The notes beneath the pieces were generated by a model. That model made no database searches and was not told where the DNA came from. It saw nothing but the letters and a program-made list of their open reading frames with translations. The position numbers and the translations under genes are program-made. From the NCBI GenBank assembly GCA_022701275.1, contig CP031740.1, forward strand, positions 259,001 to 323,000: a stretch of DNA of 64,000 nt. The letters are read 5' to 3'. Source of the stretch: Microcoleus vaginatus PCC 9802. GTDB lineage: Bacteria; Cyanobacteriota; Cyanobacteriia; Cyanobacteriales; Microcoleaceae. Every line of letters begins with the position of its first letter. The first letter of the stretch is position 1. Positions 51,645 to 61,905 of this stretch are shown one piece after another.

Positions 51645-52775
51645 ATGTACGAACGCACTGATAGTGAGATAGAAGCAATTCAAGAACTTCTTTCGCCACA
51701 CTTTGGGACTGGCTTTGAGCCTGGCGAAGTAGCAAATAGCGAACAGATAATAATCCAACAGGTATTGGAATACGTAGGTAGCCGATTTACCCGGATGAAG
51801 TATATCCTCGGTCTTGCCCTTGATTTTGCGATCGTCGCACAGCGTCTATCTAATGTTGATGACTCTGCCAAAGAATTAAGAGAGCAGCTTACAATTGAAG
51901 AATTATTTAAACGTTACCAAGTTGTCACTGAACGGGGAGAACAACAGGCAAATACACTAACTTTAAAATTTGCTCAATCTACTCAAGTAGGTATCCGACG
52001 TATAGAAGAGTCAATTGTTCAATTTTTTCACAGTCTAAATCGTTCTAAATATCCCAGTGCTTATGTTTACAATACAGGTCAATGGCAAAAGTTTCAAGAC
52101 CTGCTGATTCTCTGTTTTCGTCTGTCCGAGTCTGGACGCTTTCAACTCTGCCAAAAACTTATTGATTTTGGTCTTGAACGATTGCAAAAGAACATATTTG
52201 TTACTAGAGAATCGTTACGAGTTCGTTTATTTCCCGAAATAATAAACAATTACCCGCGCAGCGATCCAGATGAGAATGGGGGTTTAGTTTTTCAAGCCAT
52301 TGCTTGCGGCTATTTCAAAGCCGATCGGCCTCATCTCAGCTTTGTCGTTGATAAGGTACGAACAGGGTCGTCCAGACAGCGCCGTTTTGGAGATATTGAC
52401 TGTTATTACGGTCTGGATCTAGAAATATCAATAGAAGTAAAAGACTGCCACATTTCGCTTAAAAACCTCAAGCAACAATTGGGAAGTTTCCAGAAACAAG
52501 TAACAGGTAATCAAATTCTTGGCGTGGCTTTTGTACTTTCCATAGACAGCGAAGCGCGTTCTCTACTTAGCGACGACGGCATCATTTCGTTCGCACAAGA
52601 CGAGCTAATTAGATCCGTGAGGATCTGGGATTGGCAAAAGCAGGATGCTGCAGTGCATGAAATGCTTCACTATCTTGCTCACGTTGAACAGAATCCTAGT
52701 GCTGTTGCCAGGCTACTGGCATTTATCGGCGAGCGAGATCCCGAACACAACTCTCTTACTTATTATCAAAGTTAA
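51645..52775 (+). CDS. Type II restriction endonuclease
   Basis: This 376-residue protein contains RRFGDIDCYYGLDLEISIEVKD (in parts, nt ~52378-52445), a PD-(D/E)xK-type site with an aspartate followed by EVK. It overlaps tail to tail by four bases with a C5-methyltransferase gene, a common layout for type II R-M systems. The overall pattern may belong to the SacI family, but this is recalled and unsure. The recognition sequence is unknown. The ATG is at 51645. Confidence 0.75.
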   Translation: MYERTDSEIEAIQELLSPHFGTGFEPGEVANSEQIIIQQVLEYVGSRFTRMKYILGLALDFAIVAQRLSNVDDSAKELREQLTIEELFKRYQVVTERGEQQANTLTLKFAQSTQVGIRRIEESIVQFFHSLNRSKYPSAYVYNTGQWQKFQDLLILCFRLSESGRFQLCQKLIDFGLERLQKNIFVTRESLRVRLFPEIINNYPRSDPDENGGLVFQAIACGYFKADRPHLSFVVDKVRTGSSRQRRFGDIDCYYGLDLEISIEVKDCHISLKNLKQQLGSFQKQVTGNQILGVAFVLSIDSEARSLLSDDGIISFAQDELIRSVRIWDWQKQDAAVHEMLHYLAHVEQNPSAVARLLAFIGERDPEHNSLTYYQS

Positions 52776-53956
52776 ACTATGATTTCAAGAGCAACCTGAA
52801 TGGGAAACTTTAAGTCTGCATTGAGCGACTTTACTTTTTGCGATCGGGCTCTAAAAATTTCATCATCTGAGTGGCTTTGATAAGCCTTGACAACTTCCTT
52901 GCCTACCGCCAATCCTAGTAGTGGCGGTACGGCATTTCCGACTTGAAGGTACTGTGATGTTCTCGAACCCATAACCTCAAAATCATCATCAAAAGATTGC
53001 AGCCTCAATCCTTCGCGGACAGTCAATCCTCGATGCTGACTAGGATGAGTAGCTCGTGCAGACGAAGGTTTTCTCATGTTAGATGTTACAGCAATAGCTG
53101 GTTTATTACTAGCTAGTCGAGCATAGCTATTGTGAAAACCGCTGGCTGGTTGAAGGCGATCGGGAATAGACTTTCGGTTTCCACCATCTGGGATATACTT
53201 CAGAATTTCAATTAACTTTTGTGAATGATTGGCAGCCTCGTGATGTAGCAGTATGTTGGCGGTCTTGCGCCTAGCTATTTGATAGTCAGTTTGTGGCATA
53301 CTCTGGTAAGATTTACATATTTCTCCAGCATTTAATGGCGGTAGATCTGAAATGGCATCAGCTACAGTCACATAATAGTGAGAAATTGGCACTGGAAACT
53401 CAGGCGGCAGCAATCCATCAAGCCAACCTATAAAAAAAGCACGTTTTCGCAGTTGGGGTACGCCGTAGTCAGCCGCCTTTAAAAGGCGACATTTCATGTG
53501 ATAGCCGATATCAGCAAAGCTAGCGATGACTGAATCGCGCACTTTGCCTCCCTGCATTACCAGCATTCCTTCAACATTCTCGATAATGACATAAGCAGGA
53601 CGAATTTCAGCCACCAAGTCGCGAAAATTGCGCCATAAAGAATTGCGAGGATCTGTTATCTCTCGCTTGCCAACAGTGCTGAATCCTTGGCACGGTGCTC
53701 CCCCCGTAATAATGTCGATTTCTGCTGCCGAAATTTTAAAGAATTCCTCTATTTCGGAAACAGTTGTCTGCGTTAAGTCAGATACCAGACACGGAAGGGG
53801 AGATAGGTTGCGTTCAAAAGTTTGTTTGGCGTTTTCACAGTAATCTATGCCGCCGATCGCTTGGATGCCAGCACGTTTAAAACCCAGAGTTAACCCTCCC
53901 ATGCCGCAAAATAAGTCAAGGCTACGCGGAAAACGCTTGGTTTGAGTTTTTGTCAT
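52772..53956 (-). CDS. C5-cytosine DNA methyltransferase
   Basis: All key C5-MTase motifs are present in order: motif I DLFCGMGGLTLGFKRAG (residues ~15-31), motif IV GGAPCQGFSTVG with catalytic Cys, motif VI ENVEGM, motif VIII (YGVPQLRKRAFFIG), motif IX near RLQSFDDDF, and motif X QVGNAVPPLLG. The length of 394 residues is typical. AGGAGG (53966-53971) lies nine bases before the ATG. It presumably protects the sites cut by the convergent endonuclease. Confidence 0.93.
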   Translation of the reverse strand: MTKTQTKRFPRSLDLFCGMGGLTLGFKRAGIQAIGGIDYCENAKQTFERNLSPLPCLVSDLTQTTVSEIEEFFKISAAEIDIITGGAPCQGFSTVGKREITDPRNSLWRNFRDLVAEIRPAYVIIENVEGMLVMQGGKVRDSVIASFADIGYHMKCRLLKAADYGVPQLRKRAFFIGWLDGLLPPEFPVPISHYYVTVADAISDLPPLNAGEICKSYQSMPQTDYQIARRKTANILLHHEAANHSQKLIEILKYIPDGGNRKSIPDRLQPASGFHNSYARLASNKPAIAVTSNMRKPSSARATHPSQHRGLTVREGLRLQSFDDDFEVMGSRTSQYLQVGNAVPPLLGLAVGKEVVKAYQSHSDDEIFRARSQKVKSLNADLKFPIQVALEIIV

Positions 53957-54078: not shown

Positions 54079-54360
54079 CTAATTTTCTGGATACTTTCTT
54101 GAACTGTGAAGGATACGGAGAATTTCTACGTTTTCTTCTTTTACTCGATAGATGATGAGATAAGAGGTATTGGAAATGACAAGTTCTCTAGTAGCTTCTA
54201 CGCGACCAACTCGACCCATAAAAGGAAATTCGGCGAGTTGACCTACAGCACTCTGAATCCTTAAAATTAATTGCCTTGCTGCTTCTGGATCGTCTTTGAC
54301 AATATATGCGTGAGCCTGTTCTAGATTTCGCAAAGCTTGTCGCAGCCACTTAATTTTCAT
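54079..54360 (-). CDS. ParE/RelE-family toxin
   Basis: This 93-residue protein matches the RelE/ParE fold: ALRNLEQAHAYIVKDDPEAAR, LAEFPFMGRVGRVEATRELVISNTSYLIIYRVK (in parts) and a C-terminal ILRILHSSRKYP. ParE toxins poison DNA gyrase; RelE toxins cleave mRNA on the ribosome. The ParE reading is favoured by the LxxFPxxGR pattern and the RHH partner. Its start overlaps the antitoxin gene by 11 bases. Confidence 0.88.
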   Translation of the reverse strand: MKIKWLRQALRNLEQAHAYIVKDDPEAARQLILRIQSAVGQLAEFPFMGRVGRVEATRELVISNTSYLIIYRVKEENVEILRILHSSRKYPEN

Positions 54361-54592
54361 TAGTCAATTTGGCAAAAACTGCTTGAACTTCATCATCGCT
54401 GGCAAAGTCTCCAGCTTCGGCCTCGGCAACGCCTTTATTAATCTCATCAAGCAGCCATTGATAGATGTCCAGGTAAGAAGCGATCGCTTCGTTCAAAACA
54501 TAAGTTAAATCGCGATCGGTGACAGTAGCGATCGCCTTCAGCGCCTCTTTTTTTTCGCTATCAAGGAGAAATGTAAAACTTTCTTGACTCAT
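54350..54592 (-). CDS. Ribbon-helix-helix antitoxin
   Basis: This 80-residue protein starts with SFTFLLDSEKKEALKAIATVTDRDLTYVLNEAI (in parts), a ribbon-helix-helix DNA-binding domain of the CopG/ParD type. The C-terminal half (EGDFASDDEVQAVFAKLT-like) would bind the toxin. It presumably represses its own operon and neutralises the downstream toxin, with which it overlaps. Confidence 0.85.
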   Translation of the reverse strand: MSQESFTFLLDSEKKEALKAIATVTDRDLTYVLNEAIASYLDIYQWLLDEINKGVAEAEAGDFASDDEVQAVFAKLTNEN

Positions 54593-54699: not shown

Positions 54700-57264
54700 A
54701 TGATAGTACAGAACTTTCAAACCCTAGCCCTTCCGGGTAACAGCTACTCAACTGCAAGCAATTTACTCGATCGAGTAGATGGCTGGCGCCAAGAAGCAAC
54801 CCGAAAGTTGCAGCAAAGCCAGAGAGGAGAAAAGGGACAATTTTTAACACCTTCCTCAGTCGCAAGTTTGATGGCGGGAATGTTTGAATTTAACTGTCCC
54901 GATATATCGCTTTTAGATGCTGGTGCTGGTATTGGTTCCCTGTTAGCAGCCGTTGTTTGCGAACTTTGCCAGCGCCCAAACAAACCGCGCAGCCTGCACG
55001 TTACAGCTTATGAAATAGACCTTATTTTGATTGAATACCTCAAGCAAACTTTAGAATTATGCAGTATTGAATGTCAGCGTTTTGGGATATCTTTTACCTG
55101 TGAGGTTCGCGAAATAGATTTTATTCAAGACAGCGCCGATATGTTGCAGCCCAATCTATTTACACAACCAGTAAAACTGGAATTTACCCATGCAATTATC
55201 AATCCTCCCTATGCCAAGATAGACGCTAAATCCCAAGCCCGAACCTTGCTGCGTTCTATAGGACTAGAAACCAGCAATCTCTACGCTGGTTTTACAGTTG
55301 CTGCTGCTCACCTGCTCAAACCAAACGGTGAATTAGTGTCGATTACTCCCCGCAGCTTTTGCAACGGTTTATACTTTCGAGATTTCCGCAAAGTATTCCT
55401 TCAAATGATGGCTTTACGCCAAGTACATATCTTTGAATCCCGACAGTTGCAATTTCGCGATGATGCGGTGCTGCAAGAAACTATTATTGTTCGCGCCACC
55501 AAACAAATAGAACCACCAGATACTGTACTAATTACCTCAAGCAGCAGCGTGGGCGACGACCTGGTATTGTCTCACCAACTGCCCTATACCGCCCTAATTA
55601 ATCCCAAAGACTCCGAGCAATTTATTCGGATTCTACCGGATTCGGTCAGCCAGAAAGTAGTCGATCAAATGGCTCAATTTACTTGCACCCTAGAGGAATT
55701 AGGTTTAACAGTTTCTACCGGGAAAGTTGTAGATTTTCGTGTTCGCTCTGACTTGCGGCTAAAACCTGAGAACGGTACAGTTCCGCTGATTTATCCCGCA
55801 CACTTCTCGGCTGGCGGTGTTGAATATCCCACCGCAACGAGAAAGCATCAAGCTTTAGCTGTCACGGAAAAAACTGCTGCACTCCTCGTACCTAACGAAC
55901 ATTATGTTTTGAGCAAGCGCTTCTCGTCAAAGGAAGAGAAAAAGCGAATTGTTGCAGTTGTCTGGGATGCCAATAAAATTAATAGTTCTAGCGTGGGTTT
56001 TGAGAACCATTTGAATTACTTTCACCAACAGGGACGCGGATTAGACCTCACCCTCGCGCGGGGATTGGCTGTTTATCTAAATTCGAGCTTGGTAGATGCG
56101 TTTTTCCGACTGTTCAACGGACACACTCAAGTTAATGCTACGGATTTACGCACTTTGAAGTATCCTAATGTAGAGCAATTACTTTTACTTGGCGCTCAAA
56201 TAGGAGAAATATTTCCTACACAGCGGGAGATTGATCAACTTGTCGAGAGACAACTGCTGAACGCGACAAATCCGTTAGAAAATAGCCCAATGACAATCAA
56301 GAACCGTATTGATGAATCTCTAGAAATACTTGCAGCGCTGGGTTTTCCAAAAGGTCAGCTTAACGAACGTTCCGCCTTAACCCTTCTGGCTTTGCTTGAC
56401 CTCAAGCCAAAGGATGCTTGGGAATTGGCAAAATCTCCACTTCGGGGAATCACACCAATTATGGAATTTATGGAGCAGCAGTACGGTAAAAAATATGCAC
56501 CAAATACGCGGGAAACTGTGCGCCGCCAGACTGTGCATCAGTTTCTAGATGCAGGTTTAATTGTTGTTAATCCTGACAGTCCCGAACGTCCGGTGAATAG
56601 TCCAAAAACTGCATATCAGATAGAAGAAAGTGCTTTGGAACTACTGCGAACCTATGGCACTTATGATTGGGACAAGAATGTTCGCGCTTACCTCGCCTCC
56701 GTCGAAACGCTGAAGAAACGATATGCACAAGAGCGAGAAATGGCGCGAATCCCAATTACAATCGCAGGTGATGTAAAAACTCTTTCGCCAGGAGGTCATA
56801 ACGTCTTAATATCAAAGATTGTCAGTGAGTTTGCTGAGCGATTTACTCCTGCTGGCAGCCTCCTTTATGTCGGAGATACCGATGAGAAGTTTGCTCATTT
56901 CAATGAAGCATCGCTAACTGCATTAGGGGTTACAGTCGATGCTCACGGTAAGATGCCAGATGTAATTGTTCACTTCACAGAAAAAAACTGGTTGGTGTTG
57001 ATTGAAGCTGTTACTTCTCACGGCCCGATTAATCCAAAACGCAAAACAGAGCTTGAGAATCTTTTTAGAAGTTCGACAGTACCTCTGGTGATGGTGACAG
57101 CTTTCCTCAGCCGCAAGGCAATGGCGGAATATCTATCTGATATTTCCTGGGAAACTGATGTCTGGGTAGCAGAAGACGCTACTCACCTGGTTCATTTTAA
57201 CGGAGAACATCTTTTGCAGGCTTATTCCAAAAATGAAAATATTTGTGAGTCAGAAGGATGCTAA
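54700..57264 (+). CDS. Fused N6-adenine methyltransferase and BsuBI/PstI-type restriction endonuclease
   Basis: This 854-residue protein joins two halves. Residues ~20-500 are an N6-adenine methyltransferase of the Eco57I/BsuBI type: LLDAGAGIGSLLAAVV (motif I, ~72-87) and HAIINPPYAKIDAKS (motif IV NPPY, ~168). Residues ~530-854 match BsuBI/PstI endonucleases: RIDESLEILAALGFPKGQLN, NERSALTLLALLDLKP, TVHQFLDAGLIVVNPDS, RPVNSPKTAYQIE, and the catalytic region MPDVIVHF...LIEAVTSHGPINPKRKTEL followed by WETDVWVAE and HLVHFNG. In known systems these are separate genes of about 500 and 320 residues, which sums to the length here. By homology the target may be CTGCAG, which is unverified. Confidence 0.85.
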   Translation: MIVQNFQTLALPGNSYSTASNLLDRVDGWRQEATRKLQQSQRGEKGQFLTPSSVASLMAGMFEFNCPDISLLDAGAGIGSLLAAVVCELCQRPNKPRSLHVTAYEIDLILIEYLKQTLELCSIECQRFGISFTCEVREIDFIQDSADMLQPNLFTQPVKLEFTHAIINPPYAKIDAKSQARTLLRSIGLETSNLYAGFTVAAAHLLKPNGELVSITPRSFCNGLYFRDFRKVFLQMMALRQVHIFESRQLQFRDDAVLQETIIVRATKQIEPPDTVLITSSSSVGDDLVLSHQLPYTALINPKDSEQFIRILPDSVSQKVVDQMAQFTCTLEELGLTVSTGKVVDFRVRSDLRLKPENGTVPLIYPAHFSAGGVEYPTATRKHQALAVTEKTAALLVPNEHYVLSKRFSSKEEKKRIVAVVWDANKINSSSVGFENHLNYFHQQGRGLDLTLARGLAVYLNSSLVDAFFRLFNGHTQVNATDLRTLKYPNVEQLLLLGAQIGEIFPTQREIDQLVERQLLNATNPLENSPMTIKNRIDESLEILAALGFPKGQLNERSALTLLALLDLKPKDAWELAKSPLRGITPIMEFMEQQYGKKYAPNTRETVRRQTVHQFLDAGLIVVNPDSPERPVNSPKTAYQIEESALELLRTYGTYDWDKNVRAYLASVETLKKRYAQEREMARIPITIAGDVKTLSPGGHNVLISKIVSEFAERFTPAGSLLYVGDTDEKFAHFNEASLTALGVTVDAHGKMPDVIVHFTEKNWLVLIEAVTSHGPINPKRKTELENLFRSSTVPLVMVTAFLSRKAMAEYLSDISWETDVWVAEDATHLVHFNGEHLLQAYSKNENICESEGC

Positions 57265-58969: not shown

Positions 58970-60328
58970 CTAAATCGCAATAAAATCAGTGGCTGTTAGC
59001 GGACTACTTAGAATGCTAGGAATACTGGCAAGAAGTTGGCCGTTACGGGCAATTTCAATCGTCGTTGAAAAATCGCCTTCAGTAACTCTCAGTTGGTTGA
59101 AGGTCAAACCTCCGCTCAAACCCATTAAATCTTGACCCTTTTGAAAGTCTACAAGTGTATCTGTACCGGCACCTACTCCTAACACCAATACGTCGCGTCC
59201 AGCGCCACCAATTAAGAGATCTGTACCCCCTGCGCCAATGAGCGTATCGTCTCCTTCTCCCCCGCTCAAATTGTCATCCCCTTTGCCACCTAATAGCTGG
59301 TCGTTGCCGGTGCCACCGCTGATAATATCGTTGCCTTGGTTACCGCTGAGACTGTCGTTTCCTGCATTGCCAGTGATAATATCCTCCCCTGCAAAACCAG
59401 AGGCTGTATTGTTGGCACCATCGCCGACTAAATTATTAATTTGGGATGGACCGAGAGCAGTTTTCATTGCCACAACGTTTCCTAAAAAGGAGGTTCCCGG
59501 AGTGGTTCTTAATTGCTCTAAACTGCTGCGCGATTCCAGCGATGTTCCCAAGGCAGGCAGTGCAAAGTCTAAGCCAGCTAACAGCTCTAAATAATCGGAA
59601 TCTGTGAAAGTGAAATCCGGGCGGTTCAACTGGTCTACAGAGATTTCAGTCTGAGTCAAGCCGGGAGGAGGAGAACTTAACAAACCGCTTTGGGTGTGCT
59701 TGTCTAAGACAAGTAGCGGGTCAATAATCGGGTTAGTAAATGTTTGAAGAACTACTTTTCCTGGGAGAAAAGCTTCTCCTCCCAAACTCACAAAATCGCC
59801 GCTAACGATGTAGTGAGTTACATTTTTTCCGGCACCGACTTTCTGCTTGAATGTATTGACAGTGTTCTGATCAACTCCGGGAGAATTGAAGGTGACAACA
59901 TCTCCGATAGTAGAGGTAAATTCAGTGGCGGCTAGTTGCGTTATGGCGCCGCCCAAGCTGTGTCCGAGAAGGTCTGGTGGCAAGCGGCTGGGGTTTTTGG
60001 CTGTATCTTGACTGATTTCTGTCAACCAATTTCCTAATGCTTGTTTGTTGGCTTCAAATTGGTTGAAACCGGCGCCGCGCGGGTCTGCGTTGGCAAGATC
60101 GTCTACGGGCGAGTCGGTGCCCCGAAATACCAAAAGGGGCGGTTTGTCTGGGGTAGTGGAAATTAAGCCGATCGCGTGAAATCCAGTCGCCGGATCGTCA
60201 AAAGTGCGATCAATTTGGTAGCCAGCAGCGCTCAAACCTGTTTGAACTAAGGTTTGAGACTGGGGGTTGTTATCTATGTAAACAAGTTGCTTGGCTATAG
60301 TTTCGTAAGCGGCGGGGGATGAGGGCAT
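58970..60328 (-). CDS. Lipase-like hydrolase with RTX calcium-binding repeats (copy 1)
   Basis: Residues ~1-280 form an alpha/beta hydrolase-like domain with the nucleophile elbow LLGHSLGGAITQLA (GxSxG, ~residue 125). Residues ~300-395 contain RTX nonapeptides (GNAGNDSLSGNQGNDIISGG and similar), which bind calcium outside the cell. RTX proteins are usually exported by type I secretion through a C-terminal signal; none of the transporter genes is in this window. The activity is unproven. Its paralogue is next to it. Confidence 0.83.
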   Translation of the reverse strand: MPSSPAAYETIAKQLVYIDNNPQSQTLVQTGLSAAGYQIDRTFDDPATGFHAIGLISTTPDKPPLLVFRGTDSPVDDLANADPRGAGFNQFEANKQALGNWLTEISQDTAKNPSRLPPDLLGHSLGGAITQLAATEFTSTIGDVVTFNSPGVDQNTVNTFKQKVGAGKNVTHYIVSGDFVSLGGEAFLPGKVVLQTFTNPIIDPLLVLDKHTQSGLLSSPPPGLTQTEISVDQLNRPDFTFTDSDYLELLAGLDFALPALGTSLESRSSLEQLRTTPGTSFLGNVVAMKTALGPSQINNLVGDGANNTASGFAGEDIITGNAGNDSLSGNQGNDIISGGTGNDQLLGGKGDDNLSGGEGDDTLIGAGGTDLLIGGAGRDVLVLGVGAGTDTLVDFQKGQDLMGLSGGLTFNQLRVTEGDFSTTIEIARNGQLLASIPSILSSPLTATDFIAI

Positions 60329-60543: not shown

Positions 60544-61905
60544 CTATACAAAATCTACCCGCGTAATATCGCTTGCCACTACGCCTCTGAGAGTAGCAAG
60601 AACTTCACCAGTAATCGGGATAGTAATTAAAGCTCCGTCACCCGCTTGGGTTACTCTAATTTGAGGAAAAGTTAGACCCCTCGACAGTGTAATTAAATCT
60701 TCACTATCTTGAAAATCTAAAATCACATCTTCTCCGCCGCCGGATTCCAATACAAAGCGATCGCGCCCCGCACCACCAATTAAAAAATCGTTGCCAAACT
60801 CGCCGGAAACCAAATCGTTTCCGTCGCCACCCTCCAAATAATCGTTATCTCTGCCACCGTACAAGAAGTCGTCGCCATCACCACCAGTGATGCTGTCATT
60901 ACCTCGATTGCCTCTGAGAGTATCGTTACCGCGATTGCCGATAACTGTATCCTCTCCAGGGCCGCCGGTAGCAGTATTGTTGCGATCGTCCCCTGATAAG
61001 TAATTCGGTTGTAAGGGAGCTAAACCGTATTGCATTTGTCTGATTAACTGCACGAAAGAAAATTCTGGTGCTGTTCTCAAACCCTCTGCACCGCCTCTGG
61101 TTCTGATTGGGATTGACACATTGGCCAAGGGAAAATTTAGGGCAGCGATAAATTCGTTAAAATCCGAGTCGTTGTTATAAGTAAATTCGGGACTGTTTAA
61201 TTGTTCTACGGAAATTTGCCTCTGCAAAAAACCCACGGGCGGAGTAGTTAACAAATTTTCAGCTCGATGTTTTGCCAAAACAGTTAAGGGATTAATACTC
61301 GGGTCTGTAAAACTTTGGATAAATACTTTACCCGGAATAAATGCTTCCCCAAACAAGCTAACTACATCTCCGCTGACAATGTAGTGAGTGACATTTTTGT
61401 TGCCTGCCCTGCTGAGATTTCTCCGAAAACTGGTGAATGTACTCGCTGACACTCCCGGAGAGTTGAAAGTAAAGATATCGCCGGTCAGAGATGTGTATTC
61501 GGTTGCTACAATTTGAGCGACTGCTCCGCCCCAACTGTGCCCGATGACATCGGGCAATAATTTGCTGGGGTTTTTACCTGTATCTTGACCGATTTCTGTT
61601 AGCCAGTTTTTGATATTATCTTTGTTCTTTTCAAATTCAGGTAAACCAATGTCTCGGGAGTCGGAAAAGATAGGGTCGCCGTCGATGAAGTCTGTACCTT
61701 TAAATACGAGGGCGGGCGGGTTTTCAGGATTGGAGGAACCGAACCCGATCGCATAAAAGTTTGTTTCTGGGTCGTCGAATATGCGATCGATATAGTAGCC
61801 ATTAGTATCTAGGAAACGCGAAACTTCATTGGCTGCGCTTGGCTTTTGATTCAAAAAAACAATTGATTTAGCCAGAGCTTCATAAACAGCAGGCGAGGCA
61901 CTCAT
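60544..61905 (-). CDS. Lipase-like hydrolase with RTX repeats (copy 2)
   Basis: It has the same architecture as its neighbour: GHSWGGAVAQIVATEY near residue 125 and RTX units such as GNRGNDTLRGNRGNDSITGG near residues 305-400. The central segments NYHYIVSGD-type (VTHYIVSGDVVSLFGEAFIPGKV) match the neighbour almost word for word, so they arose by tandem duplication. The elbow has Trp in place of Leu (GHSWGG versus GHSLGG). The 215-base gap between the genes has no other gene. Confidence 0.83.
   Translation of the reverse strand: MSASPAVYEALAKSIVFLNQKPSAANEVSRFLDTNGYYIDRIFDDPETNFYAIGFGSSNPENPPALVFKGTDFIDGDPIFSDSRDIGLPEFEKNKDNIKNWLTEIGQDTGKNPSKLLPDVIGHSWGGAVAQIVATEYTSLTGDIFTFNSPGVSASTFTSFRRNLSRAGNKNVTHYIVSGDVVSLFGEAFIPGKVFIQSFTDPSINPLTVLAKHRAENLLTTPPVGFLQRQISVEQLNSPEFTYNNDSDFNEFIAALNFPLANVSIPIRTRGGAEGLRTAPEFSFVQLIRQMQYGLAPLQPNYLSGDDRNNTATGGPGEDTVIGNRGNDTLRGNRGNDSITGGDGDDFLYGGRDNDYLEGGDGNDLVSGEFGNDFLIGGAGRDRFVLESGGGEDVILDFQDSEDLITLSRGLTFPQIRVTQAGDGALITIPITGEVLATLRGVVASDITRVDFV

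Follow-up and report, generated by a model that had tools for sequence, protein, structure and literature searches.

A BsuBI/PstI-type methyltransferase and endonuclease in one frame in Microcoleus vaginatus PCC 9802, and a putative embedded start codon in its relatives

Type II restriction-modification systems face one central problem, the timing of methylase and nuclease relative to each other. In the 64,000-nucleotide stretch of Microcoleus vaginatus PCC 9802 analysed here (hereafter the window), a methylase (M) and a nuclease (R) of the BsuBI/PstI type are read in a single frame. The locus raises the question of whether this frame is genuine, whether both of its halves are likely to work, and whether the nuclease can be made apart from the methylase.

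A single frame with two restriction-modification halves

The frame at 54700..57264 (+) runs without interruption from an ATG at 54700 to a stop codon at 57262-57264 and encodes a product of 854 amino acids, in exact agreement with the position and 854-codon length given in a preliminary description of this DNA. Its first part (residues 1 to ~519; 54700..56256, +) has the layout of a gamma-class N6-adenine methyltransferase, in which motifs X and I precede NPPY and the target recognition domain is C-terminal, and it is matched by the Pfam families Eco57I methylase (4e-10) and N6_Mtase (1e-4). In the AdoMet-binding motif I, DAGAGIG (residues 73-79; 54916..54936, +), D73, G75, A76, G77 and G79 are invariant among 28 fused homologues, as is the catalytic motif IV, NPPY (residues 168-171; 55201..55212, +). 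The second part begins with a winged-helix/HTH DNA-recognition domain (PF17728, 4e-52; residues 534-672; 56299..56715, +), which is followed by a PD-(D/E)XK-type catalytic domain (PF06616, 1e-55; residues 685-836; 56752..57207, +). Both matches are far above the curated cut-offs, and their order is that of a BsuBI/PstI endonuclease. The catalytic stretch from P753-D754 to E769 (56956..57006, +) lies within the segment MPDVIVHF...EAVTSHGPINPKRK (residues 752-782), and P753, D754, E769 and K780 are invariant in 28/28 fused homologues, window included. No second PF06616 gene is present in the genome (6.70 Mb, one contig).

Sequence comparison finds just one close relative of solved structure, SdaI (PDB 2ixs), which aligns with residues 536-843 (E 1.2e-65) and has the same two-domain R fold there, but is a stand-alone endonuclease chain on a distant branch of the R tree. 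An AlphaFold model made from the 28 fused homologues (mean pLDDT 81.6) matches M.BseCI, CamA and M.TaqI in its N-terminal half (Foldseek) and the SdaI fold in its C-terminal half. The preliminary description had placed NPPY in the N-terminal half and the MPDVIVHF segment in the C-terminal half and had read the gene as a BsuBI/PstI-type endonuclease naturally fused to its methyltransferase; both motifs were found, and the Pfam domains of the two halves and the intact active-site motifs support that reading. The loss of catalytic residues in either half, which it had raised as an objection, is contradicted by their invariance. Compared with the nearest intact copy (L002), dN/dS is 0.13 for M and 0.13 for the whole of R, indicating purifying selection on both halves. 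A pseudogene or a dead active site was considered for the window copy and rejected on the same invariant motifs and dN/dS of 0.13.

Fused, split and nuclease-deficient relatives

A search of genome contigs retrieved 79 related loci, in 63 of which both halves stand in one intact frame; the remaining 16 are R-truncated, interrupted or M-only. Among 386 cyanobacterial genomes, PF06616 was found in 40, and by frame length these 40 comprise 18 fused (two with an in-frame stop), 9 stand-alone and 13 fragments. Rather than being exceptional, the fused form is the commoner intact form in the sampled cyanobacteria. It is old and is spread over about eleven phyla (Cyanobacteriota, Armatimonadota, Acidobacteriota, Planctomycetota, Myxococcota, Verrucomicrobiota, Gemmatimonadota, Latescibacterota, Chloroflexota, Bacillota and WOR-3), of which single labels may be wrong because many of these members are metagenome bins. 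The PADLOC profile PDLC03359 (840 positions, 'Type II methyltransferase') covers residues 20-842 of the window protein (E 6e-264); since it spans both halves, the fused form is already present in a defence-gene library. PDLC03359 thus profiles the fused family as such, but it is named only as a methylase, and its entry says nothing of a fusion, a target or an internal start. Taken singly, the two halves are ordinary members of known families, and the fusion is new to the literature searched, not to sequence libraries.

In plasmid, phage and some cyanobacterial homologues, M and R are two genes whose stop and start codons overlap, mostly as ATGA or GTGA. Because the R frame of these split relatives is one base off the M frame, a small indel can fuse the genes. 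The same 4-nt overlap gives some substance to the suspicion, raised in the preliminary description, that a false frameshift in assembly or sequencing joined two genes in the window, since a single indel could produce such a joint; against this, the joined frame is intact in the 63 of 79 independent loci, across the phyla listed above and with a common linker length, and L002 carries it at the same locus. A sequencing frameshift is excluded by this recurrence, a false joining having a negligible probability, and the window gene almost certainly encodes one fused restriction-modification protein.

In the M+R tree (51 rows), one branch divides fused from split members (bootstrap/SH-aLRT 78/76), which corresponds to one fusion/fission change, the direction of which the tree leaves unfixed. 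This topology is compatible with a single origin of the fusion but does not prove it. Several independent fusions were also considered; they are not needed by the M+R tree, and the R-only tree, with its poorly resolved backbone, does not decide the matter. In two cyanobacteria, a stand-alone R (L100:2321-4479 and L101:2391-4467) is 59-61% identical to the window R half and has a C5-cytosine methylase, not an N6-adenine one, as its upstream partner, which is a swap of partners.

The flanks of the fused gene match other Microcoleus and Tychonema genomes, and several of these strains have lost the nuclease and kept the methylase at this locus. In L003, L069, L004 and L028, a common deletion junction near window positions 56695/57182 removes the catalytic nuclease domain. 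The deletion is in-frame and 495 nt long in L003, L069 and L004, taking D754 and E769 in L003, and in L028 the junction is followed by an early stop. L039, L043, L047 and L049 keep the M frame and have no complete R. Pairwise M-M dN/dS among the R-loss strains is ~0.2, indicating purifying selection, part of which predates the loss of R. Given that R has been lost repeatedly in sister strains, it may not be strongly needed. The window protein could then be an orphan methylase in function, with an R half that is dispensable or inactive, as the catalytic-domain deletions at the same locus and the selected M frames without a complete R would suggest. However, R is intact in the window and in L002, the window copy retains all R catalytic residues, and its full-length R has the low dN/dS given above, so that we regard an orphan methylase as unlikely. 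Judged by the conservation of the sequence, both activities of the window protein are likely to be functional.

The neighbourhood of the gene is also variable. A second Type II system adjoins it at 51645-53956, where a gene for a distant SacI-like endonuclease (+; PADLOC REase profile, E 6e-40) overlaps a C5-cytosine methylase gene (-) convergently by 4 nt; this cassette is absent from the matching place in L002, L004 and L028. Between the two restriction-modification systems lie a ParE/RelE-type toxin gene and a RelB-like antitoxin gene (54079-54592, -), which are missing in L003 and L069; the island therefore gains and loses modules. Elsewhere in the window, two similar genes with RTX calcium-binding repeats (58970-60328, -, and 60544-61905, -), the former with weak lipase-like matches, are probably a tandem duplication.

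The joint between the halves and a putative embedded start

The two halves are connected by a flexible linker of ~14 residues (residues 520-533; 56257..56298, +) with low column conservation and, in the AlphaFold model, a pLDDT of 60 for the block 521-530. In an alignment of 89 fused genes, most have a methionine at the position of window residue 522, in a linker that is otherwise variable. Counted on 88 genes, with three codons' alignment slack at this position, a start codon is found at the joint in 82 (ATG in 78, TTG in 4). The six genes that lack one make up precisely the Microcoleus group; in the window gene, which belongs to it, codon 522 (56263..56265, +) is GCG. Thus, codon alignment points to a putative embedded start for free R in fused relatives outside Microcoleus that has been lost in the window. 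When the set was thinned to <75% identity, ATG stood at the joint in 24 of 29 genes against a chance expectation of ~12%, and other columns of similarly low conservation had ATG in at most 9/29, except for a block near residue 323 (20/29). In this block of the M half (residues 321-325), a second well-kept methionine lies in a weakly conserved stretch and is possibly structural. All four non-ATG joint codons are TTG, which is also a start codon, although it makes up only 14-22% of the Leu codons in those genes; the substitution represents at most two events, because three of the four genes belong to one clade.

A strong ribosome-binding sequence often precedes the joint start. The mean anti-Shine-Dalgarno duplex energy upstream of this start is -5.2 kcal/mol, whereas the remaining in-frame ATGs of these genes average -2.1 (paired Wilcoxon p 0.002, a nominal value because the genes are related), and in the lineages with the strongest ribosome-binding signals the joint almost always carries the strongest signal of its gene. 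The annotated R starts of split genes range from -0.1 to -8.1. Against a synonymous-codon null, a ribosome-binding sequence at the joint is in modest excess (paired test p 0.014; Fisher 0.38 for all genes and 0.05 for G+C-rich genes, likewise nominal); the excess is only modest because the encoded Glu-Glu already favours GAGGAG. Cyanobacterial fused members lack a ribosome-binding sequence of this kind at the joint. A fused gene held out from the analysis set (L166, on a viral contig) has ATG at the joint with AAAAGGAAA upstream.

Free R can probably be made from most fused genes as well, and we lean towards the embedded start being functional in the fused relatives. In the ancestral fused gene, the former start codon of R would have stayed on inside the frame, and with this embedded start kept in the relatives, one mRNA would yield both the fusion and free R. 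In the Microcoleus lineage of the window, the start at codon 522 is gone, which would leave the gene with only the fusion, or with a weak start moved to codon 531. The latter codon, ATG (56290..56292, +), is a candidate R start from which the window gene, too, might make free R beside the fusion: M531 is present in the Microcoleus-group copies, the very lineage without the codon-522 start, and lines up with the position where R begins in the split gene L083. The sequence upstream of codon 531, however, has no ribosome-binding sequence (duplex energy +0.2), and a second product of the window gene seems doubtful. The statement in the preliminary description that neither activity can be made alone fails as a general rule, in view of the putative embedded R start in relatives outside Microcoleus and the M-only descendants at the locus, but it may hold for the window protein, the lineage of which lost the codon-522 start.

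We thus propose, as a reading for which the chances appear about even, a widespread two-product gene in which one frame would give a bifunctional fusion, with free endonuclease made in addition from an embedded start codon conserved at the joint, and of which the Microcoleus lineage has lost the start, with the nuclease half decaying in several strains. For an internal start that gives a C-terminal product tuning activity, the long and short forms of McrB are a precedent among restriction systems (PMC12707154), but their proteins and function are unrelated to the window fusion. To our knowledge, the embedded start and its loss in the window lineage are undescribed; no published BsuBI/PstI fusion and no internal start in such a gene were found in the open-licence literature.

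Target sequence, enzyme class and known counterparts

In E. coli O145, a prophage BsuBI/PstI system goes together with methylation at 98.8% of CTGCAG sites, and its relative M.EcoGIII is CTGCAG-specific (PMC3893438). The EcoGIII-type systems of E. coli prophages have homologous M (~42% identity) and R (57%) with the same domains in the order M then R, but as two genes with an ATGA overlap instead of the one frame of the window. The M/R pair of an E. coli wrbA prophage (L125), probably EcoGIII itself, is 57% identical to the window protein across the R recognition domain; for the C-terminal part of M the identity is 47-60%. By analogy with these systems, CTGCAG is the likely target, and R would cleave at CTGCAG (or CCTGCAGG).

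Site avoidance was also tried as a guide to the target, on 864 kb sampled from the window genome and, for CTGCAG, on 38 whole cyanobacterial genomes, and it does not discriminate. CTGCAG is avoided in the 864 kb (96 observed vs 336 expected), and ATGCAT and many other palindromes are avoided more, some of these hexamers to an extreme degree (GTCGAC 1/130 expected, CAGCTG 2/182, TTCGAA 2/168, ATGCAT 1/75). The 38 genomes have between 2 and 1238 CTGCAG sites each, whether or not they carry the fused gene. Being lineage-wide and unlinked to carrying the gene, site avoidance is not diagnostic of the target. The far stronger avoidance of ATGCAT than of CTGCAG could be taken to mean that an active fused enzyme recognises another TGCA-centred sequence such as ATGCAT; but many unrelated palindromes are equally avoided, the R recognition domain has its 57% identity with a CTGCAG-type pair (PMC3893438), and blocks of the M recognition region are conserved with the same pair, all of which makes a different target of this kind improbable.

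The window protein is likely a single-chain Type II enzyme of subtype IIC, of the BsuBI/PstI family, that would both methylate and cut CTGCAG. Its R and M domains lie in a single polypeptide at the sequence level, as in Type IIC, and it lacks the one shared recognition module of Type IIG, a class in which AdoMet stimulates cleavage or is required for it, because R brings its own domain (PF17728). In the working proposed here, an M.TaqI/M.BseCI-like N-terminal methylase would be tied by the flexible linker to an SdaI/PstI-like C-terminal endonuclease; the M half, as a monomer, would methylate the adenine of CTGCAG at newly made sites, and the R half, as a dimer, would cut unmethylated CTGCAG. 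As methylation by the monomer would precede cutting by the dimer, timing would be set by assembly and not by separate promoters. Gating by assembly is the Type IIC model of a review (PMC12707154), and by analogy it may apply to the window protein.

Like the window protein, the Type IIC/IIG enzymes Eco57I, MmeI, BpuSI and BtgZI carry R and M in one chain, most of them with a gamma-class methylase (PMC4081073). The reviewed Type IIC/IIG enzymes, however, mostly have an N-terminal nuclease, recognise DNA through a single shared module and cut some distance away (PMC4081073), whereas R of the window protein is C-terminal with its own recognition domain. BtgZI is a stated exception in domain order, but it has an alpha-class methylase (PMC4081073). 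Another parallel is RM.Eco29kI, built in 2011 as a model, in which a separate palindrome-specific R and M were fused into a functional Type IIC enzyme (PMC3039593); in contrast to the window protein, it is artificial, has the order R-M and contains a C5-cytosine methylase. The authors of that study suggested that natural fusions yet to be discovered might include BsuBI (PMC3039593), and the open-licence papers searched contained no biochemical work on a naturally fused palindrome-specific (Type IIP) pair.

If the two-product reading is true, fusion would guarantee a methylase-linked form of the nuclease, and internal initiation would set the dose of free nuclease. Within this fused-gene family, what is probably the same enzyme pair occurs naturally in split, fused, fused-with-embedded-start, fused-without-start and nuclease-lost versions. 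Comparison of these natural versions, and not engineering alone, can therefore be used to test how linkage affects host protection.
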